Source: Thermomicrobium sp. CFH 73360
GTDB lineage: Bacteria > Chloroflexota > Chloroflexia > Thermomicrobiales > Thermomicrobiaceae
Length of the DNA: 64,000 bases
Assembly: GCF_023806465.1 (NCBI RefSeq)
Contig: NZ_JAMSLS010000004.1
Span: forward strand, 156,486-220,485
Direction of reading: 5' to 3'
Both the position numbers and the translations under genes were made by a program. How positions within the stretch are numbered: the stretch's first letter is position 1; the number at the start of each line of letters is the position of its first letter. The notes under the pieces are model-generated. The model saw only the letters and a program-made list of their open reading frames with translations. It was not told where the DNA came from and did not search any database. Below are positions 15,368 through 61,018 of this stretch, piece after piece.

Positions 15368-16747
15368 ATGCGCACGATTGCTCGACCAGCCACCTCGGAC
15401 CGAAGCAGAGTACGCGGCCTGCACGGGAGGAGCACCACGCACGAGACAAATCGCTCCACGGCTGTTGAGCGCGCACTCCTCGTCTGCGTCCATTGGCGAC
15501 GAGACGGTTGGGATCCTGTATCCTCTCTCGCGGAACTCGCTCAGCTGGCTGAAACTGCCGGACTCCAGGTCGTTGGCGCAGTCACGCAGCATTTGCCTCA
15601 TCCCCACCCACGACAGTACGTCGGACCGGGCAAACTGGCCGAGATCGCCGCTCTTCGTCGTGAGCTCGACTTTTCCGTCGTCCTGGCGGACGACGAGCTG
15701 AGCCCAGCGCAGCTCCGGCACCTCGAGGATGCGTTGCAGGTGAAAGTCCTGGATCGTACGGCGCTCATCCTCGACATCTTTGCTCGGCGCGCACAGACTC
15801 GCGAAGGTCGCTTGCAAGTAGAGTTGGCGCAGTTGGAGTACCGTTTGCCGCGCTTGACCCGCATGTGGACACATTTGTCCCGCCAGGCTGTTGGTGGAGT
15901 CGGATTGCGCGGGCCTGGCGAGACACAGCTGGAAATCGACCGCCGGCGCGCCCGAGAGCGGATCGCTTGGATCCGTCGTCAGCTCGAAGATGTGCGGCGG
16001 CATCGTGAGCGATATCGCCAGCGGCGCCGGCAAGAGCGACTACCTGTGGTGTCGCTCGTCGGCTACACCAACGCTGGGAAGTCAACGCTCCTCAATGCAC
16101 TAACTGGCGCGTCTGTCCTTGTCGAGGACAAGCTGTTCGCGACCTTGGATCCCACCACTCGCCGACTTGCCCTGCCAGACGGGCAACTTGCTCTCTTGAC
16201 CGATACCGTCGGATTTATCCATAAGCTTCCAACATCTCTTGTCGCTGCATTTCGGGCCACCCTGGAAGAGATTCTGGATGCTCACTTGCTCCTGCATGTT
16301 GTGGATGTCACACATCCTAAAGCCGCCGAACAGGCAGCGACCGTCCGTAAGGTGTTACGGGAACTCGGGGCAGATAGTTACCCGACGATTACTGTGCTGA
16401 ACAAGATCGATTTACTGACACCGGACGTCGATCCTGAGCAGCTTGCCCAAGAACTCGGGCTTCCCCCGAACGCGCTCCTTGTCTCTGCAGTGACCGGTCA
16501 GGGATTGGACGCACTACGGCAACGCATCGCCGCAACGCTACGGGAGATCACGACACCTATCTCAGTTCGATTGCGTATCCCGTACCGCGAAACAAATCTC
16601 CTGGCACTTATCGAGGAGCGGGGTACAATTGCCGAGCGGCGATACTGTGCCAACGACATCATCGTTGATGCTCAGGTCCCAGTCGCGCTTCTACCTCGGC
16701 TCGACCGCTATGTTGTACCGCGACTGCGCACGCATGAAACACCTTGA
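15368..16747 (+). CDS. hflX: Ribosome-associated GTPase HflX
   Basis: 459 residues from ATG 15368. The open frame reaches back into tRNA-Gln, which cannot be coding. The ATG has no clear ribosome site, so an alternative start near 15440 (after GGGAGGAG) is possible. The HflX N-terminal domain has HPRQYVGPGKLAE and the linker GVGLRGPGETQLEIDRRR. The G domain follows, with VGYTNAGKST (G1), DTVGFIHKLP (G3) and NKIDLL (G4). HflX binds and splits stalled ribosomes, notably after heat shock. Confidence 0.92.
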   Translation: MRTIARPATSDRSRVRGLHGRSTTHETNRSTAVERALLVCVHWRRDGWDPVSSLAELAQLAETAGLQVVGAVTQHLPHPHPRQYVGPGKLAEIAALRRELDFSVVLADDELSPAQLRHLEDALQVKVLDRTALILDIFARRAQTREGRLQVELAQLEYRLPRLTRMWTHLSRQAVGGVGLRGPGETQLEIDRRRARERIAWIRRQLEDVRRHRERYRQRRRQERLPVVSLVGYTNAGKSTLLNALTGASVLVEDKLFATLDPTTRRLALPDGQLALLTDTVGFIHKLPTSLVAAFRATLEEILDAHLLLHVVDVTHPKAAEQAATVRKVLRELGADSYPTITVLNKIDLLTPDVDPEQLAQELGLPPNALLVSAVTGQGLDALRQRIAATLREITTPISVRLRIPYRETNLLALIEERGTIAERRYCANDIIVDAQVPVALLPRLDRYVVPRLRTHETP

Positions 16748-51704: not shown

Positions 51705-51791
51705 CGATTTTCGGCTTCGTATTGCGGAACGAGGGCGCATGGGAGTCGAACCCACCGGCGAGGCTCGTCACCCCGCCCACCGGTTTTGAAG
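51705..51791 (+). repeat. Left attachment repeat (relic of the selC 3' end)
   Basis: Matches 60903-60986 imperfectly over 84-87 bases, with a 29-base identical core at 51763-51791 beginning GCTCGTCACCCC and ending GTTTTGAAG. Read on the minus strand it encodes the anticodon loop to the 3' end of a selenocysteine tRNA, with its own variable arm GGCGGGG/CCTCGCC. It is the chromosomal 3' half displaced when the element entered. The match also covers about 20 bases beyond the tRNA. Confidence 0.85.
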
Positions 51792-51822
51792 TCTGCGGAA
51801 AAACATCTTGACTGGTGCTCAA

Positions 51823-51882
51823 ACATCCGGACAGTGCGTCCGTACGCGTAAGACATCCGTTCGAGTGTGCTAGAATGTCCGG
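51823..51882 (+). promoter_or_regulatory. Putative promoter with repeated ACATCCG boxes at the element's left end
   Basis: An extended -10 TGCTAGAAT (TAGAAT 51871-51876) lies 64 bases before the HTH gene. ACATCCGG (51823-51830), ACATCCGT (51853-51860) and the inverted ATGTCCGG (51875-51882) surround it. No clear -35 box. The boxes may bind the element's own regulator; this is inference. Confidence 0.4.
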
Positions 51883-51898
51883 TGAGTGACAATTTATC

Positions 51899-51918
51899 TG
51901 CTAGCAGTATTGCTAGCA
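51899..51918 (+). repeat. Left integrase arm-type sites (paired TGCTAGCA)
   Basis: TGCTAGCA, itself a palindrome, occurs at 51899-51906 and 51911-51918 with spacer GTAT. The pair starts 107 bases inside the left core repeat. A pair with identical 12-base spacing occurs at the right end. See 60832-60851. Confidence 0.6.
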
Positions 51919-51939
51919 GGGCCAAAGAAAGGAGTGGGC

Positions 51940-53067
51940 ATGATGTCCGCTGTGCCGTACCTAATAACATGGCGGGTCGTCGGAGTGGCGACCTTGTGGC
52001 CGGAGGACCTCCTTGATGCGCTCGAGACCGAGATCGTGGCGGCCGGATTCATCCGCCACTTCGATCGTGAGAACACGACATCGGTGGTCGCCGTCCGCGG
52101 TTGGCGTATCTACCAAGACGGAGAAGGTCGGATCTCCCTGCAGGTCATCCCGATCTGGGAAAACGGCCAGTGGGAGCTGCACCTGGTCGCTGTTGGATGG
52201 TCTGATCAGCCGCTGGACGACTCACACTTGGCATACGCCGGGTTCCTCCAGGGGCTACCGGAGCGCTTCCCGGTTCCGAGTACGGGCGGTATCGTTGAGC
52301 GACTGCAAGCGGGGAGACATGTCCCTCTCCTGTGGTCTGCGATCATCGACACGCCGTCAGCCTTCGTCGAAGCTTGGCTACGGGATGAATTCTTCCCGAG
52401 GTGCAGGGACTTCGGCGTCGCTGAGGGAGACCCACAGGTCGTCAAGCTGGACAACACGCGCTGGTGGGTCTGGATGCTGTGGGCAACTCCAACGTGGTTG
52501 TCCACCCGCGGTGGAAACTGGTGGGTGGTTCCGTCAGTAGCCCTCGTGACAACGCCGCAGCTCTGTCCTACCGTCTTGCTCGTACCGAGCGAGCACGCCA
52601 GTTTGTGCCTGAACCTGAAAGAATACAGGGGCAAGACCTTCATCCAGGTGTGCTCATATCTGCCCGTCCACCCCATCGCTTCCTGGCTCGTCATCGACTT
52701 CGCAACCAGGCGGGCGGGTGTCCTCTTCCCTCTCCTCCACCAGCAGGACCACCGCATTCCCGCGATGCAGCTCTTCTCCTGGTGGTGCGGCGTCTCCACG
52801 GACCGCGACTTTCCAGACCTTCATGGCCTGTCCGACGGTCGTCGCCGGGTGGCAGAACTCCTGATGCGTGGGAAGACACTCAAAGAGATCGCTGAAGCGC
52901 TCCGCGGAGTCGTGACGGAGTCGACGGTCCGAACGTATTACTCGGAATTCTGGAACAAAGAGGAATTCGCGTGGCTCCGACCGTACCTGCCGCCCCCAAA
53001 CCCGAAGTATTCCGCATATGGCCGGCTGGCGTGGCAGAGGCCCGCCACGAAACGTGATCGAGGTTGA
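51940..53067 (+). CDS. Element-encoded protein with C-terminal HTH, unknown N-terminal domain
   Basis: 375 residues from ATG 51940 (AAAGGAG 5 bases upstream); ATG 51943 is equally possible. The Trp-rich N-terminal 290 residues (RWWVWMLWATPTWLSTRGGNWWV) resemble no family I know. Residues about 300-338 (GRRRVAELLMRGKTLKEIAEALRG, then STVRTYYSEFW) form a LuxR/sigma-4-like helix-turn-helix. Likely a sequence-specific regulator or replication initiator. Base composition here is less G/C-rich than in the genes downstream, so this gene may have another origin. Confidence 0.6.
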   Translation: MMSAVPYLITWRVVGVATLWPEDLLDALETEIVAAGFIRHFDRENTTSVVAVRGWRIYQDGEGRISLQVIPIWENGQWELHLVAVGWSDQPLDDSHLAYAGFLQGLPERFPVPSTGGIVERLQAGRHVPLLWSAIIDTPSAFVEAWLRDEFFPRCRDFGVAEGDPQVVKLDNTRWWVWMLWATPTWLSTRGGNWWVVPSVALVTTPQLCPTVLLVPSEHASLCLNLKEYRGKTFIQVCSYLPVHPIASWLVIDFATRRAGVLFPLLHQQDHRIPAMQLFSWWCGVSTDRDFPDLHGLSDGRRRVAELLMRGKTLKEIAEALRGVVTESTVRTYYSEFWNKEEFAWLRPYLPPPNPKYSAYGRLAWQRPATKRDRG

Positions 53068-53093
53068 ACGAAACGAAGCCAAAATCAACCCCT

Positions 53094-53156
53094 TATCAAG
53101 CCTTGATATAAAGCTTGGCGCGTCCGTACGCTGATCGTCAGGACGGATCGATCAGC
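53094..53156 (+). promoter_or_regulatory. Control region with two perfect palindromes ahead of the replication operon
   Basis: TATCAAG (53094-53100) and CTTGATA (53102-53108) form a 7-bp inverted repeat with one base between, overlapping an A/T-rich TATAAA (53107-53112) that may be a -10 box. GCTGATCG (53130-53137) and CGATCAGC (53149-53156) form a perfect 8-bp repeat with 11-base spacer, ending just before the AGGGAGG ribosome site of the next gene. These look like operator and leader hairpin of the operon starting at 53173. Confidence 0.5.
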
Positions 53157-53172
53157 TTAGGGAGGACGCGCC

Positions 53173-53427
53173 ATGCCCATAGCCTATAGCAGTGCTTCGC
53201 GCTCCACAACCGTCAGCGTCGGTGAGGCTGCCCAGCTGCTCGGCGTCGGGCGGAGCCTGGCGTATGAGCTCGCGCGCTGGCAGGGCCAGCTTGCGCCGGG
53301 GGTGCCGGTGATCCGCGTCGGTGGTCGCCGGTACCGCGTACCGGTCCGGCCGCTGGCACAGGCGCTCGGCATCGACGAGGACGAGCTGCTCGCTCGCCTC
53401 GGAAGGGAGGGCCGACGGGATGCCTGA
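53173..53427 (+). CDS. Excisionase/MerR-like helix-turn-helix protein
   Basis: 84 residues with AGGGAGGA upstream. The motif VSVGEAAQLLGVGRSLAYELAR is the winged-helix DNA-binding start of AlpA/Xis-type proteins, followed by VPVIRVGGRRYRVPVRPLAQALG, the typical wing and hydrophobic end. Such proteins direct excision by tyrosine integrases or regulate element genes. It overlaps the next gene by 8 bases. Confidence 0.75.
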   Translation: MPIAYSSASRSTTVSVGEAAQLLGVGRSLAYELARWQGQLAPGVPVIRVGGRRYRVPVRPLAQALGIDEDELLARLGREGRRDA

Positions 53428-53707
53428 CACGCGAACGCCCCCAGCCACCTGGCCAGAGGCGCCGCGAGCGCACGTCGTTGTTCTCCAGTCTACCCCATCG
53501 GGACACGACATCGCCGAGCCGGTACTTCAGGCCAACAGTCCTGGCTACGACCCCACCACCACCCGCCGCCCAGTCGGCGCCACCCGCGACTGTCCACATT
53601 GCGGGTCGGTGGTGCCGGTGCCGCTCGCCGCTGACCCTGACGATCCCGCCGCGCCAGGTGACCGGTGCCCATCGTGCGGCTATGACTGGCCCGGGGGTGC
53701 GCCATGA
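53420..53707 (+). CDS. Small zinc-ribbon protein of the replication operon
   Basis: 95 residues from ATG 53420. The first half is low complexity. The C-terminal half has CPHCGSVVPVPLA and CPSCGYDWPGG, a four-Cys ribbon of the two-CxxC type. It overlaps the primase gene as ATGA. Likely a DNA- or protein-binding accessory of replication; function inferred from position only. Confidence 0.55.
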   Translation: MPDTRTPPATWPEAPRAHVVVLQSTPSGHDIAEPVLQANSPGYDPTTTRRPVGATRDCPHCGSVVPVPLAADPDDPAAPGDRCPSCGYDWPGGAP

Positions 53708-56283
53708 CCGTGCGCGATGCAGTGGTGGCCTACGCCCAACGTGGCTGGCAGCCGCTGCTCCTCCGACCCCGCGACAAGCGCCCGCTCGACGGGGGTTGGG
53801 CGTCCGCGCCGCCCACGGTCGACGTGCTCCTCACCCGGCTGGACGGATGCACCGACTTCAACCTGGGGGTGCTCTTGGGCGCACCGAGTGGCGGCCTGGT
53901 CGACGTCGACCTGGACAGCCCAGAGGCGCGCGCCCTCGCAGCCCGGCTGCTCCCGCCGACAAAGTTGGTGTTTGGGCGGCCAAGCGCTCCGGCGTCGCAC
54001 TGGCTCTATCAGGCCGACCCGGTACCGGAGTCACGGGCCTACCACGCGCCGGACGGCCGCGTGCTGCTCGAGCTCCGGGCCGACCGCCACCAGACCATGG
54101 TCCCCCCATCGGTCCACCCCTGCGGCGAGCCAGTGCGCTGGGAGTGCGACGGCGAGCCGGGCCGGGTCACGGCCGAGGAGCTCCACCAGGCCTGCGCTCG
54201 CCTGGCGGCGGCCGCGCTCCTGGCCCGCCACTGGCCGGCGCCGGGGAGCCGGCAGGAGGCAGCGCTCGCCCTCGCCGGCGCACTCGGGCGCCTGGGTTGG
54301 CCTGCCCGTGCCGTCGAGGAGTACGTCCTCCTCGTGGCGGAGGCTGGAGGAGATGAGGAGGCCCGCAAGCGGGCCGCCGCTGCCCGTGACACCGTCGCCA
54401 AACAACAGACCGGCGAGCCGACCACCGGCTGGCGACGACTGGCCGAGCTGCTCGACCCAAGCGTCGTGCGCTGTGTCCGGCGCTGGTTGGAGCCGGCGCA
54501 GCGGCGCGTCGGGCCGTACCAGTTCGGGTCGAGCGGGATCGCCTACATCCGCGAGACCGAGCACGGGCACGAGGCGCGGCCGCTCGCCAACTTCACGGCC
54601 GAGATCGAGGAGGCGATCGTCACCGACGACGGTGCTGAGCCCCGCCGCGTTTTCGTGGTGACCGGACGGGTTGGCGACACCCCGCTCCCGCCGCTCCGGG
54701 TCCCTGCCGAGCGGTTCGCGGCCCTGGCCTGGACCGCCGAGTGGGCACCGCGCGCCGTCCTCTACGCCGGGCAGACCACCCGGGATCGGGTGCGGGAGGC
54801 GATCCAGCTCGTCTCGCTCGATGCCCCAGAGCGGGTCATTTACACCCACACTGGCTGGCGGCAGGTCGGCGGACGGTGGCTCTACCTGCACGCCGGGGGC
54901 GCCCTCGGGGCGGACGGCCCGGCCGAGGGGATCAGCGTCGAGCTGCCGCAGGAACTGGCACGCTACCGCCTGGTCGAGCCGCCGGACGCCGAGACACTCC
55001 GCGCAGCCGTCGCCACGGTCTGGCATGAGCTCCCCACCGTGGCCCCGACTGTCTACGCCGCGCTGTTCGGTGCGGCGGTGACCGCCCCCCTGGCGACCGT
55101 GCTTGACGTCGACGCGGCGGTCTGGGTCGCCGGCGCCACGGGCCTGTTCAAGACCTCGGTCGTCAGCCTGCTTCTCAACCTGTACGGTGAGTTTCCGCCC
55201 ACGACAGCCCCAGCCGGGTTCGAGTCGACGGCGAACTACCTCGAGAAGCTCGCCTTTTTGGCGAAAGATCTCCCGCTCCTCATCGACGACGTCCGCCCAC
55301 CGCAGAGCGTGTCCGAGGCGGCCGAGTGGCGGCGGAAAGTCGAGCGGCTCGTGCGCGCGGTCGGGAACCGCACCGGCCGCGGGCGGATGGCCGGGGATAC
55401 CACGCTGCAGGGCGCCTATCCGCCGCGGGCGTTGGTCATCGTGACCGGCGAAGACGAGCTCGCGGGGAGCTCGACGATCGGCCGCACGCTGCTGGTGCGG
55501 TTCGAGCTGGGAACGGTGGACCCCCAGGCGCTTGGCCGCTGGCAGCGCGATCCCGTCCCGCTCCGGTTCACTGGCGCCGGGTATGTCCGCTGGTTGGCCG
55601 GTCTCCTTGACCGGCACGGTCCGGCGCGGTTCCGGGCGCTGCGCGACGGGCTGACGATCCCGGAGCTCCCGTCCGGGCTCCACCCACGCCTCGCCTCGAC
55701 CCTGCGCCAGCTCCTGGCTGGTTGGACGCTCTACGCCTGGTTTGCGACCGAGACGGGGGCGGTCAGCGAGGCGGCGGCCAATCGCCGGCTCGATGAGGTA
55801 GCGGCCAGCCTCGCTGAGCACGCCGTGGCGACCGGGGAGGAGGTCCGGGCGCAGCGGCCGAGCCACCGGTTCGTGCAGGCGCTGGGGGACCTTCTGGCCA
55901 GCCGGCGGGCCTCTCTCGCCGGGCGCGACGGAAAGCCCCCGCCGGACGCCGAATCGCTGGGGTGGGTGGCGCTCGACGGCGGGACGCTGGTCCCGCGGGG
56001 CGAGCGGGTCGGCTGGGTCGACGAGGACGGGCTGTACCTGATCCCCTCCACCGCGCGCGCGTTGGTCGGTCGGCTGTTGCGCGAGAGCGGAGAGGTGTTC
56101 GCGATCTCGTCTCGGCGTCTGCTGGAGGAGCTCGAGCGGGACGGCTACCTCCTGCCCACCAGCCACCGCGGGCCGACACGCGCCGCGGTTATCAAGGCCG
56201 AGGGCAAGACCTGGCGTGTCTGGGCGCTCCGCCGCCTGGCGGTCGAGCGCCAGTGGGGTCACAAGGACCCGGAAGGAGCCTAG
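53704..56283 (+). CDS. Primase-polymerase (AEP) / DUF927-like helicase fusion
   Basis: 859 residues. Residues 1-180 match a bifunctional DNA primase/polymerase domain: GVLLGAPSGGLVDVDLDS carries the catalytic DxD (Asp67-Asp69) and ELRADRHQTMVPPSVHPCGE (123-142) the second motif. After a linker, a DUF927/superfamily 3-like helicase begins near 330 (RVIYTHTGWRQVGGRWLYLH), with Walker A VAGATGLFKTS near 474-484 and a DD in LLIDDVRPP. Such fused proteins prime and unwind plasmid or virus DNA. It ends 3 bases before the polymerase gene, so one operon. Confidence 0.8.
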   Translation: MTVRDAVVAYAQRGWQPLLLRPRDKRPLDGGWASAPPTVDVLLTRLDGCTDFNLGVLLGAPSGGLVDVDLDSPEARALAARLLPPTKLVFGRPSAPASHWLYQADPVPESRAYHAPDGRVLLELRADRHQTMVPPSVHPCGEPVRWECDGEPGRVTAEELHQACARLAAAALLARHWPAPGSRQEAALALAGALGRLGWPARAVEEYVLLVAEAGGDEEARKRAAAARDTVAKQQTGEPTTGWRRLAELLDPSVVRCVRRWLEPAQRRVGPYQFGSSGIAYIRETEHGHEARPLANFTAEIEEAIVTDDGAEPRRVFVVTGRVGDTPLPPLRVPAERFAALAWTAEWAPRAVLYAGQTTRDRVREAIQLVSLDAPERVIYTHTGWRQVGGRWLYLHAGGALGADGPAEGISVELPQELARYRLVEPPDAETLRAAVATVWHELPTVAPTVYAALFGAAVTAPLATVLDVDAAVWVAGATGLFKTSVVSLLLNLYGEFPPTTAPAGFESTANYLEKLAFLAKDLPLLIDDVRPPQSVSEAAEWRRKVERLVRAVGNRTGRGRMAGDTTLQGAYPPRALVIVTGEDELAGSSTIGRTLLVRFELGTVDPQALGRWQRDPVPLRFTGAGYVRWLAGLLDRHGPARFRALRDGLTIPELPSGLHPRLASTLRQLLAGWTLYAWFATETGAVSEAAANRRLDEVAASLAEHAVATGEEVRAQRPSHRFVQALGDLLASRRASLAGRDGKPPPDAESLGWVALDGGTLVPRGERVGWVDEDGLYLIPSTARALVGRLLRESGEVFAISSRRLLEELERDGYLLPTSHRGPTRAAVIKAEGKTWRVWALRRLAVERQWGHKDPEGA

Positions 56284-56286
56284 GCG

Positions 56287-58437
56287 ATGGCACAGCCAGA
56301 GCGCCCCAAGACTCCAGCGACGCTCGGCACGGCCTACCTCCAGCTCGCAGCCGAGCTGTTCGGGGCGGCGACAAACACTCAGAGGGTCTCTATCCCCAAA
56401 ACGTGTTACTCATGTAACTCATGTAACCGTCCGCATGAGGACGCGGAAATCGAGGGCACGACGGTGACATGTTCGGGGGGCGAACATGTAACCGGAGATG
56501 TAACCAGGAACGGCCGTCCCCCAACGGCGCAACCGGGGTTACATCTGTGGTTACACGTTCCCGGCGGAACATGTAACCGGGCGCGACTGGAAGATCCCAC
56601 AGCCGATGGGGCTACTTTCGAGCAGGTTACACCAGTTACACGAGTTACATCTTCTGGAGGGAGAGATACCCTTGACGTTGGTCCCCAGGCAGTCGCTGCT
56701 GGCCCTGCGCCGCTCGAGGCACCGGTGACGCTGGTGCGCGCACCCGCGGAGCTCGGGGTAGTGCAGCGCCTGGGCCGCCTTGTGGCGCTCGATCTCGAGA
56801 CAGTTGGGCTCGACCCCCACCAGGGGCGGATCCGGCTGGTGGCGCTCTCGGACGGCGAGCAGGTCGTGCTGCTCGACGCGGCGGCCCTCTCACGCAACGC
56901 CCTGGCGGCGGCGCTGCGTCAGCTCGCCCACGGGCGGGTCGTGGCCCTGCACCACGGCGCCTTCGACCTCGGCTACCTCCTGGTCCACGGCCTACCACTA
57001 CCCACAGCGCTTCGCGACACCATGCTCGAGGCGATGCTGCTCGATGCCGGCCAGCGACTGCACCAGCGTGGCACCTTCACGCTGGAGGCCCTCGCTGCCG
57101 AGTGGCTGGGGCTGACGGTGGACAAGCGGCTGCAGACCAGTGATTGGTCGGGGGCGCTCTCGGCCGAGCAGCTCGCCTACGCGGCGCGCGACGCCCTCGT
57201 CACCTGGCGGCTGGCAGAGCGGCTTCAACCGGAGCTGGCCCGTGCCGGGCTCACCGAGGCCGCGGCGCTTGAGGCCCGCGCGCTCCCCTTTGTTGCCTGG
57301 CTCCGCGTCACCGGGCTGCCCTGGGACCAGGAGGCCTGGGAGCAGGCCGTGGCGGGGGCGGAGCGGGAGCAGACCGAGGCGGCCGTCGCGCTGCGTGCAC
57401 TGCTGCCCGCTGACGGGCTCTTCGGTGCGACAGTCAACCTTGACTCACCGAAAGCGCTCAAAGCCGCGCTGAGCCAGCTCGGTCTTGCGCTCGAGGACAC
57501 GCAGGACGAGACGCTGGCCCTCCTCGACCACCCCGTTGCCGCAGCACTTCGCCGCTACCGCAAGGCGGCCAAGTACGCCTCGAGCTACCCGCGTGACTGG
57601 GCGACCGTGCACCCGGTGACTGGTCGAGTGCATCCCGATTGGCGCCAGCTCGGGGCGGCCACGGGCCGGATGAGTTGCTCCGCGCCGCCAGTGCAACAGC
57701 TCCCGCGGGAGGGGGGCTTTCGCCGGGCGGTGGCAGCGCCTGCGGGACGCGTCCTGGTCAAACTCGACTATGCCCAGATCGAGCTCCGCGTCGTGGCTGA
57801 GCTCGCTGACGAGGAACGGCTGATCGAGGCCTTTGTGCGTGGGGAGGACGTGCACCGCAAGACCGCCCGGCTCGTGCTCGGTGTGCAGGAGCCCTCTCGC
57901 GCCGAGCGGCAGAGAGCGAAAGCGTTGAATTTCGGTCTGTTGTACGGCATGAGCACCGAGGGGTTCCGACGGCATGCGGCGGCCGAGTTCGGCCTACGGC
58001 TCTCGCCTGCCGAGGCAGCGCAGCTCATCGAGCGGTTCTTCGCCGCGTACCCCAAGTTGCGGACGTGGCAGGCTCGGCAACAGCGCACGGGGGCAGGTGA
58101 CGTCCGCACCCGGTCGGGGCGGCTGCGGTCCGACGTGCGGCGGCCCACGGAGCGGATGAACACGCCGGTGCAGGGGACGGCGGCTGACGGGCTGAAGGCG
58201 GCGCTGAGCCTGCTCTGGGAGCAGCGCCACCGGCTCGGCTCAGCCGTCCCGGTGTTGGTGGCGCACGACGAGGTGGTGTTGGAGTGTGCCCTCCACGAGG
58301 CCGACCGGGTGGCCTGGGAGGCTGCGGAACTCCTCAGGCAGGGAATGGGGTGGTATCTGCACCGGGTGCCGGTGGTGGTCGAGACGACGGTCTGCCGGGA
58401 CTGGGCAGGGACACCGGTGCGTCAGGAGGAGGCGTGA
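56287..58437 (+). CDS. Family A DNA polymerase with 3'-5' exonuclease domain
   Basis: 716 residues from ATG 56287 (GGAAGGAG upstream). The 3'-5' exonuclease starts near 150: VALDLETVGL (Asp169, Glu171), then AARDALVTW. Polymerase motif A is VKLDYAQIELR (Asp494), motif B RAKALNFGLLYG (about 543-554) and motif C LVAHDEVVLE (His660-Asp661-Glu662). A 5' nuclease domain is absent. Residues 35-125, encoded by the GTTAC/GTAAC cluster, are low complexity (TPVTRVT, CYSCNSC). It probably replicates the element. Length is below that of cellular PolA (about 900). Confidence 0.85.
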   Translation: MAQPERPKTPATLGTAYLQLAAELFGAATNTQRVSIPKTCYSCNSCNRPHEDAEIEGTTVTCSGGEHVTGDVTRNGRPPTAQPGLHLWLHVPGGTCNRARLEDPTADGATFEQVTPVTRVTSSGGRDTLDVGPQAVAAGPAPLEAPVTLVRAPAELGVVQRLGRLVALDLETVGLDPHQGRIRLVALSDGEQVVLLDAAALSRNALAAALRQLAHGRVVALHHGAFDLGYLLVHGLPLPTALRDTMLEAMLLDAGQRLHQRGTFTLEALAAEWLGLTVDKRLQTSDWSGALSAEQLAYAARDALVTWRLAERLQPELARAGLTEAAALEARALPFVAWLRVTGLPWDQEAWEQAVAGAEREQTEAAVALRALLPADGLFGATVNLDSPKALKAALSQLGLALEDTQDETLALLDHPVAAALRRYRKAAKYASSYPRDWATVHPVTGRVHPDWRQLGAATGRMSCSAPPVQQLPREGGFRRAVAAPAGRVLVKLDYAQIELRVVAELADEERLIEAFVRGEDVHRKTARLVLGVQEPSRAERQRAKALNFGLLYGMSTEGFRRHAAAEFGLRLSPAEAAQLIERFFAAYPKLRTWQARQQRTGAGDVRTRSGRLRSDVRRPTERMNTPVQGTAADGLKAALSLLWEQRHRLGSAVPVLVAHDEVVLECALHEADRVAWEAAELLRQGMGWYLHRVPVVVETTVCRDWAGTPVRQEEA
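56405..56648. repeat. Cluster of eleven GTTAC/GTAAC motifs, candidate iteron origin
   Basis: GTTAC or its complement starts at 56405, 56414, 56423, 56488, 56500, 56538, 56550, 56573, 56626, 56635 and 56644. The first triplet and the last are spaced exactly 9 bases; inner pairs are spaced 12. Orientation differs along the cluster. A perfect 9-bp inverted repeat, ACATGTTCG (56467-56475) and CGAACATGT (56481-56489), lies between the first two groups. GAACATGTAACCGG occurs twice. It lies wholly in the coding region of the polymerase. Confidence 0.6.
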
Positions 58438-58682
58438 TGGGTGCCCGCGTCGTGCAGGGGATAGTACGTGTGCCACGTCAGGACGTCAGGGCGCGACCGC
58501 TTGATGGGCTCCTGCGCGGTGCCTGGATGGGGTGCGCGCATCGACAGCGCGCGCGGTGTGGGGAGTCGTCTGCGCACAACGTTACTTATACGCACAACGC
58601 TACCAGGGTTTTCAGACAACGACCGCGACGGATGCCGATGGCCAGTGCGCCAGCATGTTACCATCGTAGACGAGTTCGCTAG
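58437..58682 (+). CDS. Small basic protein, hypothetical
   Basis: 81 residues, with GGAGGAGG upstream and start overlapping the polymerase stop as TGATG. Very rich in arginine (MGARVVQGIVRVPRQDVRAR, ending HRRRVR), so nucleic-acid binding is conceivable. The frame has limited codon evidence and the sequence GCGCACAACG is repeated inside it (58574 and 58592), so a non-coding role remains possible. Confidence 0.35.
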   Translation: MGARVVQGIVRVPRQDVRARPLDGLLRGAWMGCAHRQRARCGESSAHNVTYTHNATRVFRQRPRRMPMASAPACYHRRRVR

Positions 58683-58706
58683 GTGATCTTGACGTTGTGT
58701 CGGGGT

Positions 58707-59282
58707 ATGATGCGGCGTACCACAGATCGCGCGACGCTCCAAGCGGTGTTCGGGCTTGGACGCCGCGGGCCGTTCCCAGGGCAAGGGGCGAACGCTCACC
58801 AGGGCTGGTGGGGGCTCTGCGAAGAGACGCCGCAGCTCTGGGCAAGCTGGCTCGCGGAGTACTGGCGGCGGAAGACCGGCACTCCCCTCCCAGAACGACC
58901 ACCCTTCCGTCTTTTGGTTGACGCGGGACGCGAGCTGGTCATCGAAGGTGTCCGCCTCACCTACGGCTATCGCTGGTTCTTCCGCTGTCCCGTCTGCGGG
59001 CGGCGGACCGAGGTGCTGTACCAGGGCCGGCGGGGACTCGCTTGCCGGCGCTGCAATCGGCTCGGGTACCGCAGTCAGGCACGCCGTGTGCGCGTGCCCG
59101 GGCTGCTCGACCTCGTCTGGGGGCGGGAGTTCGACCGCTGCTGCGGCGACACGCCGCTGCTTGCCGAGCTCGCGCGTGACCTGAAGCAGCACCTGGCAAC
59201 TGGTCTGGAGCGGCTTTTTGGCCAGCTGCAGGTTGAACCGCTGGACCACAGGGAGGTGCAGGATGACGGAGACACGCCGTGA
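58707..59282 (+). CDS. Zinc-ribbon protein of the element, hypothetical
   Basis: 191 residues from ATG 58707. The open frame extends 8 codons upstream to GTG 58683 with weak ribosome sites at either. Trp-rich N-terminus (WWGLCEETPQLWASWLAEYW), then a ribbon: FRCPVCGRRTEVLY and LACRRCNRLGYRSQ, ending in a Leu/Arg-rich helix. Such proteins recur in phages and plasmids next to integrases, role unknown. Confidence 0.6.
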   Translation: MMRRTTDRATLQAVFGLGRRGPFPGQGANAHQGWWGLCEETPQLWASWLAEYWRRKTGTPLPERPPFRLLVDAGRELVIEGVRLTYGYRWFFRCPVCGRRTEVLYQGRRGLACRRCNRLGYRSQARRVRVPGLLDLVWGREFDRCCGDTPLLAELARDLKQHLATGLERLFGQLQVEPLDHREVQDDGDTP

Positions 59283-59712
59283 GCGCCTGGTGCGACAGGA
59301 GGCCGCCCGACAAGCGCGGGTCTGGGAGGAGTACCAGGCGCATCTGCGGCGCTACGAGGCTTGGGCGGTCGCTGAGGAACGGTTGCGCGCGCTCGTACCC
59401 AAGGCGCTCGACGTAGTGGAGCGCACACTCGATGACCCGGCACAAGGACCGAAGGTGGCGCTCGCGCTCCTCCGCGCGGCGGGGCTGTGGGGGCTTGAGC
59501 CGGTGTCGAAGCCGAGTCTCCGGCTGTACCAGCTCAGCGCCGATCTCGAGGACTTCTCCCTGGCATCGTGGGACAGACCCGCCGTGGCGCAGGTCCGCGG
59601 CGTCGACCGAACACCGCGAGCCACGTCGCGCCAGACCGTTGGGCTTGATGCGGCGGAAGGAGCAGCGGATGATGAACAAACCGGAGCAGCCGACAGGACC
59701 GGGCAAGCGTAA
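59263..59712 (+). CDS. Small helical protein of the element, hypothetical
   Basis: 149 residues from ATG 59263 (GGGAGGTGCAGG just upstream, 20-base overlap with the previous gene). Residues 1-70 are charged helix (MTETRRERLVRQEAARQARV, EEYQAHLRRYEAWAVAEERL). The C-terminal third lacks a fold pattern. It may bind DNA or protein. It overlaps the integrase start by 44 bases. Confidence 0.55.
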   Translation: MTETRRERLVRQEAARQARVWEEYQAHLRRYEAWAVAEERLRALVPKALDVVERTLDDPAQGPKVALALLRAAGLWGLEPVSKPSLRLYQLSADLEDFSLASWDRPAVAQVRGVDRTPRATSRQTVGLDAAEGAADDEQTGAADRTGQA

Positions 59713-60871
59713 GCGCCGCGCCAGAGGCGAGGGCTCCATCTTCTGGAACAGCCATCGTCGTCGCTGGATCGCGGAAATCTCGACCGTCGACCCGACCGGC
59801 AAGCCCAAGCGGGTGAACCGCTCGGCCAAGACCCAGGCTGAGGCTCTCCGCCTCCTCCGCGAACTCCAGCGGCAAGCAGAGCAGGGGCTCCTGCCCCTCG
59901 GCCGTCCGCCGACCGTGGCCCAGTTCCTGACCCAATGGCTTGAGGGCCAGCGGCACAGCCTGCGGCCGCGCACCTGGGAAGGATACGAGTCCATCGTGCG
60001 CACGCGGCTCATCCCCCAGCTCGGTCGGTTACGGCTCGACCAGATCTCCCCTGCCCACCTTGCTGCCGCCTACGACCGGCTCCTGGGAGAGGGACTGAGC
60101 CCCAAGTCGGTGCTCAATACGCATCGGCTGCTTCATCGTGTGCTCGGTGACGCGGTGCGCTGGGGCATGCTCGTCCGCAACCCTTGCGACCTTGTCGATC
60201 CACCCCGAGCGACCCGGCCGGCGGTCCGTGCGCTTGACGCGGGCGAGGTCGCTCGGCTGCTCGAGGCCTCGGCCACTGACGACCTGGGGCCCCTCATCAC
60301 CGTCGCGGTGCTGACCGGGCTTCGGCTCGGGGAGCTGGTTGGGTTGACGTGGGACGAGGTGGACCTCGAGCGCGGGGAACTCTCCGTGGTGCGCTCACTG
60401 CAGCGGGTGCGGGGGCGCGGGCTGGTCGTGGTACCACCGAAGACCGCCTCGTCAAAGCGCCTCGTGCCGTTGGCGCCGCAGGCCGTCGCTGCGCTTCGCG
60501 AGCAGCGCAGTCGACAGCTTGCGTCCCGCCTCAAGGCGGGGCCAGCCTGGGCTGGGGGTAACTGGGTCTTCACCACAGCGCTGGGGCTGCCCTACGACCC
60601 AAGCGACGTGACCCACCGCTTCCAGCGGCTGCTCGAGCGAGCGGGGCTGCCGCGGGTGCGCTTCCACGATCTCCGACACACCGCAGCAAGCCTGCTCCTC
60701 GCCGAAGGAGTGCACCCGAAGGTGGTGGCGAGCCTCTTGGGTCACAGTACGGTCTTGATCACCCTTGACACGTACTCCCACGTGATGCCGGGGCTCACAC
60801 GCCAGGCGACGGAGACCCTCGCCGGGCTGATTGCTAGCAGAATTGCTAGCAAGAGCACGTCCGAGGGGTGA
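59669..60871 (+). CDS. int: Tyrosine-family site-specific integrase
   Basis: 400 residues from ATG 59669 (GGAAGGAG upstream). An arm-binding-type N-terminus (GSIFWNSHRRRWIAEISTV) is followed by a core-binding domain (TVAQFLTQWLEGQ) and the catalytic domain: Arg219 in TGLRLGELVGL, Lys near 259 in PPKTASSKR, His333-Arg336 in FHDLRHTAASLL, His359 in LLGHST and Tyr369 in DTYSHV. It recombines attP with selC. Its last residues IASRIAS are encoded by the TGCTAGCA arm sites. Confidence 0.93.
   Translation: MMNKPEQPTGPGKRKRRARGEGSIFWNSHRRRWIAEISTVDPTGKPKRVNRSAKTQAEALRLLRELQRQAEQGLLPLGRPPTVAQFLTQWLEGQRHSLRPRTWEGYESIVRTRLIPQLGRLRLDQISPAHLAAAYDRLLGEGLSPKSVLNTHRLLHRVLGDAVRWGMLVRNPCDLVDPPRATRPAVRALDAGEVARLLEASATDDLGPLITVAVLTGLRLGELVGLTWDEVDLERGELSVVRSLQRVRGRGLVVVPPKTASSKRLVPLAPQAVAALREQRSRQLASRLKAGPAWAGGNWVFTTALGLPYDPSDVTHRFQRLLERAGLPRVRFHDLRHTAASLLLAEGVHPKVVASLLGHSTVLITLDTYSHVMPGLTRQATETLAGLIASRIASKSTSEG
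60832..60851 (+). repeat. Right integrase arm-type sites (paired TGCTAGCA)
   Basis: TGCTAGCA at 60832-60839 and 60844-60851 with spacer GAAT, giving the same 12-base period as the left pair. The pair ends 106 bases before the right core repeat (107 on the left). In the circular form both pairs would flank the core symmetrically, as arm sites of a lambda-type integrase do. Confidence 0.6.
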
Positions 60872-60902
60872 GCCGAGCAGAACCTTCACGACACGACCTC
60901 TC

Positions 60903-60986
60903 GATTTTGGCTTCTCGATGCGGACGAGGGTGCATGGGAGTCGAACCCACCGACGGAGCTCGTCACCCCGCCCACCGGTTTTGAAG
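60903..60986 (+). repeat. Right attachment repeat overlapping the functional selC
   Basis: Counterpart of 51705-51791. The 29-base core 60958-60986 is identical. To its left the sequence differs from the left copy in the variable arm, acceptor and 3' flank, as expected if the element brought its own tRNA 3' half. Confidence 0.85.
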
Positions 60987-61018
60987 ACCGTGCGGGCCAC
61001 CGGGCCCGATCCACCCTC
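60925..61018 (-). tRNA. selC: tRNA-Sec (selenocysteine, anticodon TCA)
   Basis: 94 bases on the minus strand. The anticodon loop CTTCAAA gives TCA (complement of 60982-60984). Acceptor GAGGGTG pairs with CACCCTC; the eighth position is a G-G mismatch. The D-stem is CGGGC/GCCCG, the long variable arm GGCGGGG/CTCCGTC, the T-arm GTGGGTTCGACTCCCAT and the discriminator G. CCA is not encoded. UGA decoding by Sec is therefore expected in this organism. The 3' half lies inside the right att repeat. Confidence 0.88.

Follow-up and report, generated by a model that had tools for sequence, protein, structure and literature searches.

What is the element that occupies the selenocysteine tRNA gene (tRNA-Sec, selC) of Thermomicrobium sp. 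CFH 73360, and by what means might it copy itself? The same gene is used by phiR73. We analysed a stretch of 64 kb, hereafter the window (G000:C33:156486-220485, where the end of the contig is also reached); G000 is the window's own genome, and G and L numbers denote, respectively, the genomes and the loci fetched from them. We consider it probable that this locus holds a 9.2-kb element integrated in tRNA-Sec, which is likely excised as a circle by its own integrase and would copy itself from a predicted origin, a mirror-symmetric array of repeats, with its own primase-helicase and polymerase. Judged by its sequence, it is an integrative element with a replicon of the type found in Staphylococcus aureus pathogenicity islands (SaPIs) and, unusually, a family A DNA polymerase of its own. 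The initial annotation had also proposed an integrative replicon, and this proposal is supported by what follows.

The element is 9,195 bp long and is bracketed by two copies of the 3' part of tRNA-Sec. A core of 29 bp, identical at 51763-51791 and 60958-60986 and thus repeated at a spacing of 9195 bp, belongs to a longer repeat of 63 nt (51729-51791 and 60924-60986) in which 59 of 63 bases are identical; the core repeats that the initial annotation had described are therefore borne out, the right copy lying within an intact tRNA-Sec. The G+C content of the element is 68.8%, versus 58.8% in the remaining window. Over its full 63 nt the left copy of the repeat (attL) agrees at every base with G003 and G006 (100%), and likewise with G001 and G002 over 62 nt; with G004 it is 89% identical, whereas the right copy (attR), which forms part of the window's tRNA, reaches 94% in the same comparison; hence the left copy is the lineage's own allele. 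Since the tRNA copy is the divergent one, the element has swapped the 3' end of the gene for its own version. When the two flanks are joined in silico they re-form a tRNA-Sec that ARAGORN accepts, and the occupied gene is recognized as tRNA-Sec as well. The host genome has a SelB match above the curated cut-off, and two formate dehydrogenase-like matches that fall short of the family cut-off contain a single TGA apiece, so that selC is probably in use in this host. These formate dehydrogenase-like frames with a single in-frame TGA (G000:C23:107276-108025 and G000:C12:765155-765943) probably encode selenoproteins.

The site was surveyed in seven genomes of the genus, G000 included. In G003 and G004 it is empty, the left flank, tRNA-Sec and the right flank being continuous (L048, L049), and the integrative replicon thereby passes the check for empty selC sites in relatives. 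It is occupied, with both ends seen, in G000, G001 and G006; in G002 only the left junction is present, with no right flank after it on that contig (L047), and G005, which is 62% complete, gave no match to the site. G006 is the nearest genome by DNA (94-95% in both flanks). Between its repeats lie about 55.8 kb, and about 54.8 kb in G001. Among nine proteins scanned from the G006 insert there are matches to a large terminase, a tail fibre, a peptidase/endolysin, a DnaB-like helicase and a primase, with a weak portal match (6.7e-4), and by these genes the insert reads as a prophage; the G001 insert has relatives of all seven G006 prophage proteins compared (terminase 93% and portal 87% identical). 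The prophages lie at L044-L046 (G006:C4:3085-58903) and L041-L043 (G001:C1:65322-120221). Their integrases are 29-32% identical to that of the window, and each prophage also encodes a family A polymerase, which shares 34-37% identity with the one in the window. In this genus selC is an integration site common to different elements.

Eight open reading frames (ORFs), nearly filling the element, were scanned against Pfam, PHROGs and NCBIfam. An integrase, an excisionase-like helix-turn-helix (HTH) gene, a Prim-Pol and a family A polymerase, all listed by the initial annotation, were confirmed, and all lie on the + strand; its description of the primase-helicase as of archaeo-eukaryotic primase (AEP)/DUF927 type held for the Prim-Pol part, but DUF927 was only a weak Pfam match (0.035, below cut-off). 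Its statement that capsid, terminase, relaxase and secretion genes are lacking agrees with our scan, where the capsid, tail, large-terminase, relaxase, secretion and lysis families gave no meaningful score among the eight ORFs; the nearest packaging or structural scores were those of a small-terminase family to the leftmost, cargo gene (E 0.33) and of tail fibre assembly to the polymerase (0.26). The polymerase frame keeps the phase of the primase-helicase frame before it, the two being parted by a TAG and one codon. An AlphaFold2 (AF2) model of residues 267-859 of the primase-helicase (mean confidence, pLDDT, 90.9) has as its best PDB matches 8tch and then 5dgk; in the model, the helicase half with its flanking domains has the fold of SaPIbov1 Rep and of Cch from SCCmec, a staphylococcal cassette chromosome (SCC). 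The gene set, for which the initial annotation had no name, has a replication core that can be named: an initiator helicase of SaPIbov1 Rep/SCCmec Cch type, an AEP primase and, behind them, an array of iterons.

This array occupies 248 bp just behind the helicase gene and has six repeats in each half. Their strand order, ---+--++-+++, is mirror-symmetric, with the outer copies 9 nt and the inner ones 12 nt apart. Ten of the twelve copies have an exact GTTACA and two are degenerate; the first copy has two mismatches and was counted as it keeps the 9-nt register. All 10 exact GTTACA words of the element are inside the array, the other 14 in the window being outside the element. When the array DNA itself was compared with 21 relatives, G000, G004 and G005 alone gave matches. 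We predict that it serves as an origin like those known from SaPIs and other phage-inducible chromosomal islands (PICIs). Neither this array nor the fold of the helicase, the two features that decide the reading, had been noticed in the initial annotation.

Do relatives of the helicase have such arrays? The idea was formed on 10 first loci, which are the relatives with sequence after the helicase end (left out were L054-L056, L058, L059 and L067, with the Prim-Pol domain only, and L066, which is cut). L052, from G004, has the same order and the same word as the window; L050, from G005, has the same order with the word GGTTACCC and three extra upstream copies without partners; and L051 (TGTCCCCG), L057 (GTCACATR) and L065 (TGTCCCTN) have mirror orders of their own. 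If one mismatch is tolerated, six of these loci are anti-palindromic, provided that the first copy of the window with its two mismatches is counted and the three extras of L050 are set aside. For a count independent of order, the 1.2 kb that follow the helicase were searched for the 7-mer with the most exact copies inside 420 bp, and this number was compared with 100 dinucleotide shuffles; all 10 first loci exceeded every shuffle. A helicase profile matched 16 of 400 genomes of the phylum, from which 15 new loci were counted after dropping L090 and L094 (further copies like L082), L088 and L093 (further fragments of a broken G244 gene) and L074-L076 and L089 (already used). Nine of the 15 (L077, L082, L083, L085, L086, L087, L091, L092 and L095) were above all 100 shuffles; they represent five genera and include the sisters L082/L083, L086/L087/L092 and L091/L095. 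Control stretches upstream had 3-5 copies, L084 apart. Opposed halves are plain in L095 (six versus six, one copy with a mismatch), L091 (three versus six) and L087; those of L082, L083 and L085 are less tidy. The count test found no array in L064, an incomplete locus, nor in L068, L069 and L070, which are outside the phylum; the latter, two gut phage contigs and a Streptomyces plasmid, were considered as carriers of the same origin and set aside when no array stood out. In L061, L063 and L065 the array is within the 3' end of the initiator frame, and a polymerase relative was not found on the stretches fetched for L057, L061-L063, L065, L097, L100, L102, L104 and L106. The relatives keep an array behind the helicase while its repeat word changes, and the polymerase is not a fixed partner of the two.

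Several observations were made beside these counts. In L052 (7703-7844) a half iteron array, inverted, is present just past the polymerase stop, about 2 kb from the full array, and L065 has a second cluster of repeats, with GGTTACA words, at 16211-16436, about 4.3 kb upstream of the initiator frame. The 1.47-Mb genome G201 (C1) has three elements with like helicase loci, L097, L098 and L099; L097 and L099 have nearly the same gene order, with a resolvase-like frame, many small frames and a GTTTCCA array behind the initiator, and the three may be a family of viruses or mobile elements. The circular elements of Dehalococcoides may be a parallel to those of G201.

L050 is the nearest sister of the window element. 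It adjoins a tRNA-Tyr and its integrase is 60% identical to that of the window, from which integration sites change within the family; the initial annotation's selC-targeted gene set is hence in selC in the window, but the set is not tied to selC. A single open frame of 1,587 aa (L050:1770-6533) combines Prim-Pol, a SaPIbov1 Rep-type helicase, an iteron-coded linker, a 3'-5' exonuclease and a family A polymerase. L050 also encodes a VRR-NUC nuclease and a protein resembling the small terminase subunit, TerS (phrog_51 3.4e-9; Pfam Terminase_2 25.9 bits, cut-off 26.1), although NCBIfam ranks HTH models of sigma factors and transposases first for the latter, none of them reaching its cut-off. Over the last residues of the helicase the window shares 73 of 97 with L052, which has the same iteron word, and 55 of 99 with L050, which has a different one (L050 versus L052: 52 of 95); the kinship of the polymerase cores is the opposite, 376 of 551 with L050 and 264 of 537 with L052. 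The C-terminal end of the helicase and the iteron word thus change together.

Some of the evidence weighs against an element that replicates from such an origin. No circle or joined attP was found, the assembly holding only the two integrated att copies. The centre of the array is 74% G+C and not AT-rich as in described PICI origins; in L057 and L065 it is 43% and 38%. Two further words with two mismatches in the array region were excluded from the iteron count. The mirror order is partial in four of the 10 first loci (L053, L061, L062 and L063), and on exact copies alone it is complete in one (L057), because missed copies shift the pairing. No array was seen in the 1.2 kb that follow the helicase of L078, L079 and L081. 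The count of L080 is weak, being reached in 2 of 100 shuffles, and those of L084 and L096 are marginal, each being reached in 1 of 100; the upstream control of L084 has 7 copies against 5 downstream. As for the co-variation, the helicase C-terminus, the array and the polymerase linker are adjacent, and they may have been exchanged as one tract rather than co-adapted.

The array might alternatively be a hairpin in mRNA or single-stranded DNA, for example one that regulates translation of the polymerase. Its strand does fold far better than shuffles (z -5.3 as DNA and -6.6 as RNA, for the window only), but the mirrored spacers, 10 pairs from five loci, are no more complementary than shuffles (lowest fraction 0.1), so that the pairing is that of the repeats. 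We find this explanation improbable, since arrays also follow the helicase in L057, L061, L062, L063 and L065, on whose fetched stretches no polymerase relative was found, since those of L061, L063 and L065 sit in the 3' end of the initiator frame, and since the extra copies of L050 have no partners. More improbable still is a prophage remnant that has lost its structural genes. Family A polymerases and tyrosine integrases are frequent among phages, with matches in 3,828 and 2,017 phage records, and the att site is indeed shared with the prophages of G001 and G006; these sibling prophages, however, are as distant in integrase and polymerase as given above, their DnaB-like helicase and primase match other families, and the compact gene order of the element recurs in G005, where nothing structural was matched among nine further ORFs but the TerS-like gene, and in part in G013, up to the contig end.

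For the passage of the favored integrative element between cells, two routes compete, both of them raised in the initial annotation. As a strict phage satellite it would be induced and replicated with a helper and packaged in helper capsids, which is quite possible, if short of probable. The SaPIbov1-type initiator with its iteron origin, the AlpA/Xis-like HTH protein and the lack of recognized structural genes speak for a satellite, the sister L050 has its TerS-like and VRR-NUC genes, and on another contig of the host (C12, L121:6671-13415) there is a cluster with a large terminase, a portal and a major head protein; together, these last make a satellite life possible. Yet no TerS or capsid-remodelling gene was recognized in the window element, its att site is taken by prophages in G001 and G006, unlike the described PICI sites, a relative of its zinc-ribbon gene was found neither among 50,697 phage records nor in IMG/VR, and NCBIfam, as noted, ranks other models, all below cut-off, first for the TerS-like protein. 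The L121 cluster is possibly a prophage or a gene transfer agent, and a possible helper. A prophage like those of the siblings was sought in G000 and rejected: the G006 terminase finds nothing, and the head and packaging cluster that is present is a different one. A plasmid-like element, independent of phages and moving by rare routes such as natural transformation or mobilization in trans, is only slightly less likely. It would account for a complete replication kit with its own polymerase and for the absence of recognized phage structural or conjugation genes, and in G257 a relative of the helicase adjoins a tyrosine recombinase and a frame that by eye resembles ParA. The TerS-like gene of the nearest sister speaks against it, as does the lack of a recognized partition or relaxase gene in the window element.

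Table 1. Positions in the window of the genes, repeats and sites of the element
Feature	Position	Strand	Basis
attL, 3' part of original host tRNA-Sec left by integration	51729..51791	-	63-nt repeat
Candidate integrase arm-type site, left end	51899..51919	+	GCTAGCA/ATTGCTAGCA words; inferred
Cargo gene, weak C-terminal HTH, possible regulator	51943..53067	+	GerE 0.0045, below cut-off
HTH_17 excisionase/AlpA-like (Xis-like) protein	53173..53427	+	PF12728 at cut-off, 27 bits; TIGR01764 below cut-off
Small CxxC protein, zinc-ribbon-like	53420..53707	+	Weak matches only; 52 aa aligned to L051 at 79% identity
Primase-helicase: Prim-Pol, SaPIbov1 Rep/Cch-type helicase and C-terminal domain in one chain	53704..56283	+	Prim-Pol 5.8e-15
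DNA polymerase of family A with 3'-5' exonuclease domain; iteron array codes its N-terminal linker	56287..58437	+	9.9e-64
Predicted origin within polA frame: 12 GGTTACAY-type iterons in mirror order	56403..56650		Repeat analysis
Conserved zinc-ribbon protein, also in related elements	58707..59282	+	19 related protein clusters
Small conserved protein	59263..59712	+	4 clusters including itself
Tyrosine integrase	59669..60871	+	PF00589 3.4e-26; phrog_1 1.9e-80
Candidate arm-type sites, right end, inside integrase 3' end	60830..60852	+	Two ATTGCTAGCA, 12 nt apart; inferred
attR, tRNA-Sec 3' part brought by element	60924..60986	-	Core 60958-60986 covers anticodon
Intact tRNA-Sec (selC) after integration	60925..61018	-	ARAGORN

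The remaining features are collected in Table 1. The three occurrences of ATTGCTAGCA in the window, each at most 150 bp from an att repeat, are more than a chance pattern and look like integrase arm sites, and L050 has ATTGCTAACTCG twice at the equivalent place of its integrase gene. The frame of the cargo gene is open from 51886, in a region of lower G+C content (61.6% at 52-53 kb); as a conserved part of the element it was rejected, since the genes at the left ends of L050 and L051 do not resemble it. The small conserved protein has no PHROG or Pfam match and, since a profile comparison with the TerS-like L050 protein was also negative, was rejected as a TerS. A defence role was likewise dropped, PADLOC returning, apart from one weak hit to an HTH, only hits of polymerase and exonuclease type. 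No partition gene was recognized among the element's ORFs. For the zinc-ribbon protein, the AF2 model (pLDDT 69.6) has no PDB match at E<=0.001. Its 19 clusters, among 5.8 billion sequences, come from sources such as Thermomicrobiaceae bacterium CFH 74404, Thermorudis peleae and Meiothermus taiwanensis, and it is matched in three of 400 phylum genomes (its own included, one weak) and in Thermalbibacter longus CFH 74404, which NCBI assigns to Thermomicrobiota and GTDB to Chloroflexota; as in the phage and viral-contig sources above, no relative was found in the plasmid collection. Relatives of the primase-helicase are present in 16 of 158 genomes of the class, several of them sharing only one half. 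The genus of L050 belongs to a family with thermophiles.

How might such an element work? The tyrosine integrase, with the small HTH protein, would recombine the 29-bp core over the anticodon arm, and the integrase would so excise the element as a circle. The C-terminal domain of the helicase would then bind the iterons, the six of each half loading one hexamer, head to head; the fused Prim-Pol would prime and the family A polymerase extend. For transfer between cells, packaging by a helper phage is our first guess, by analogy with SaPIs. We infer the excision, replication and transfer of the element. What appears to be new here is SaPI-type replication in an integrative element with its own polymerase and a predicted origin inside that gene; a literature search, whose coverage excluded subscription papers, found no published account of this element. 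A bolder proposal, which we think rather unlikely, is that of a new family of self-sufficient satellites with a SaPI-type initiator and their own proofreading polymerase, whose origin is written into the polymerase or initiator frame as a mirror-iteron dodecamer, one hexamer per half, and whose extreme is the fusion of primase, helicase, exonuclease and polymerase in a single replicase gene with its own origin; these would ride thermophile phages between the Thermomicrobia and even into other phyla, for instance the one to which Meiothermus belongs. The element extends the self-loading initiators of SaPI/SCC type, with their iteron origin, to the Thermomicrobia and other members of the phylum. 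Arrays of six per half with freely changing words make the loading of one hexamer per half testable on many natural pairs of initiator and iteron, and a satellite-sized element with its own polymerase, together with a naturally occurring replicase that unites four functions and has a predicted origin within its gene, should be useful for replication biochemistry.

Among known systems, the closest are the PICIs. Passages on these describe an AEP primase and a Rep helicase followed by an origin of two iteron sets with an AT-rich region between them (PMC7581432, PMC6092414), a size of about 15 kb, in some cases genes for interference or packaging such as terS, and an attachment site that is by definition never occupied by prophages (PMC6092414). 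By sequence and fold, the element resembles SaPIbov1-type islands in its AEP primase, its DUF927-type Rep helicase (8tch) and two iteron sets directly behind rep, and it has a small HTH regulator, a tyrosine integrase at one end with a specific att site, and no recognized structural or lytic genes. It differs in its own family A polymerase with a proofreading domain, in an array inside a coding frame and without an AT-rich centre, in its 9.2 kb and in the lack of a recognized TerS or interference gene, and its host group is not mentioned in those passages. We do not class it as a PICI, because its att site is common to prophages and no packaging gene was recognized. Cch of the SCC elements (5dgk) is the second-best fold match of the helicase, but these elements rely on Ccr, large serine recombinases that were not matched here, where a tyrosine integrase in a tRNA gene is the sole recombinase and Prim-Pol is fused to the helicase. 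Integrative and conjugative elements (ICEs) or integrative mobilizable elements differ by the relaxase or secretion genes that the eight ORFs lack. As in enterobacterial selC islands (PMC6174562), selC is the integration site. P4 likewise encodes Int, the AlpA homologue Vis and a primase-replication protein (PMC6092414); the SaPIbov1 Rep-like helicase sets the element apart from P4-like satellites. On the side of the CCPol-MP operons, passages of PMC10061031 tell of a few operons in which a DUF927 helicase is paired with an A-family polymerase; the polymerase of the element differs in having a 3'-5' exonuclease domain. The abstract on Thermus ICETh2 describes a mobile element with a Prim-Pol beside a helicase, as here. 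GP55 of lactococcal phage 1706 unites helicase, AEP primase, polymerase and 3'-5' exonuclease in one chain (PMC12205980), the same four kinds of domain as in the 1,587-aa sister frame; its polymerase is of family B, however, and the word iteron is absent from the main text of that paper. Without claiming membership of the PICI family, we conclude that the element probably works like a SaPI replicon.

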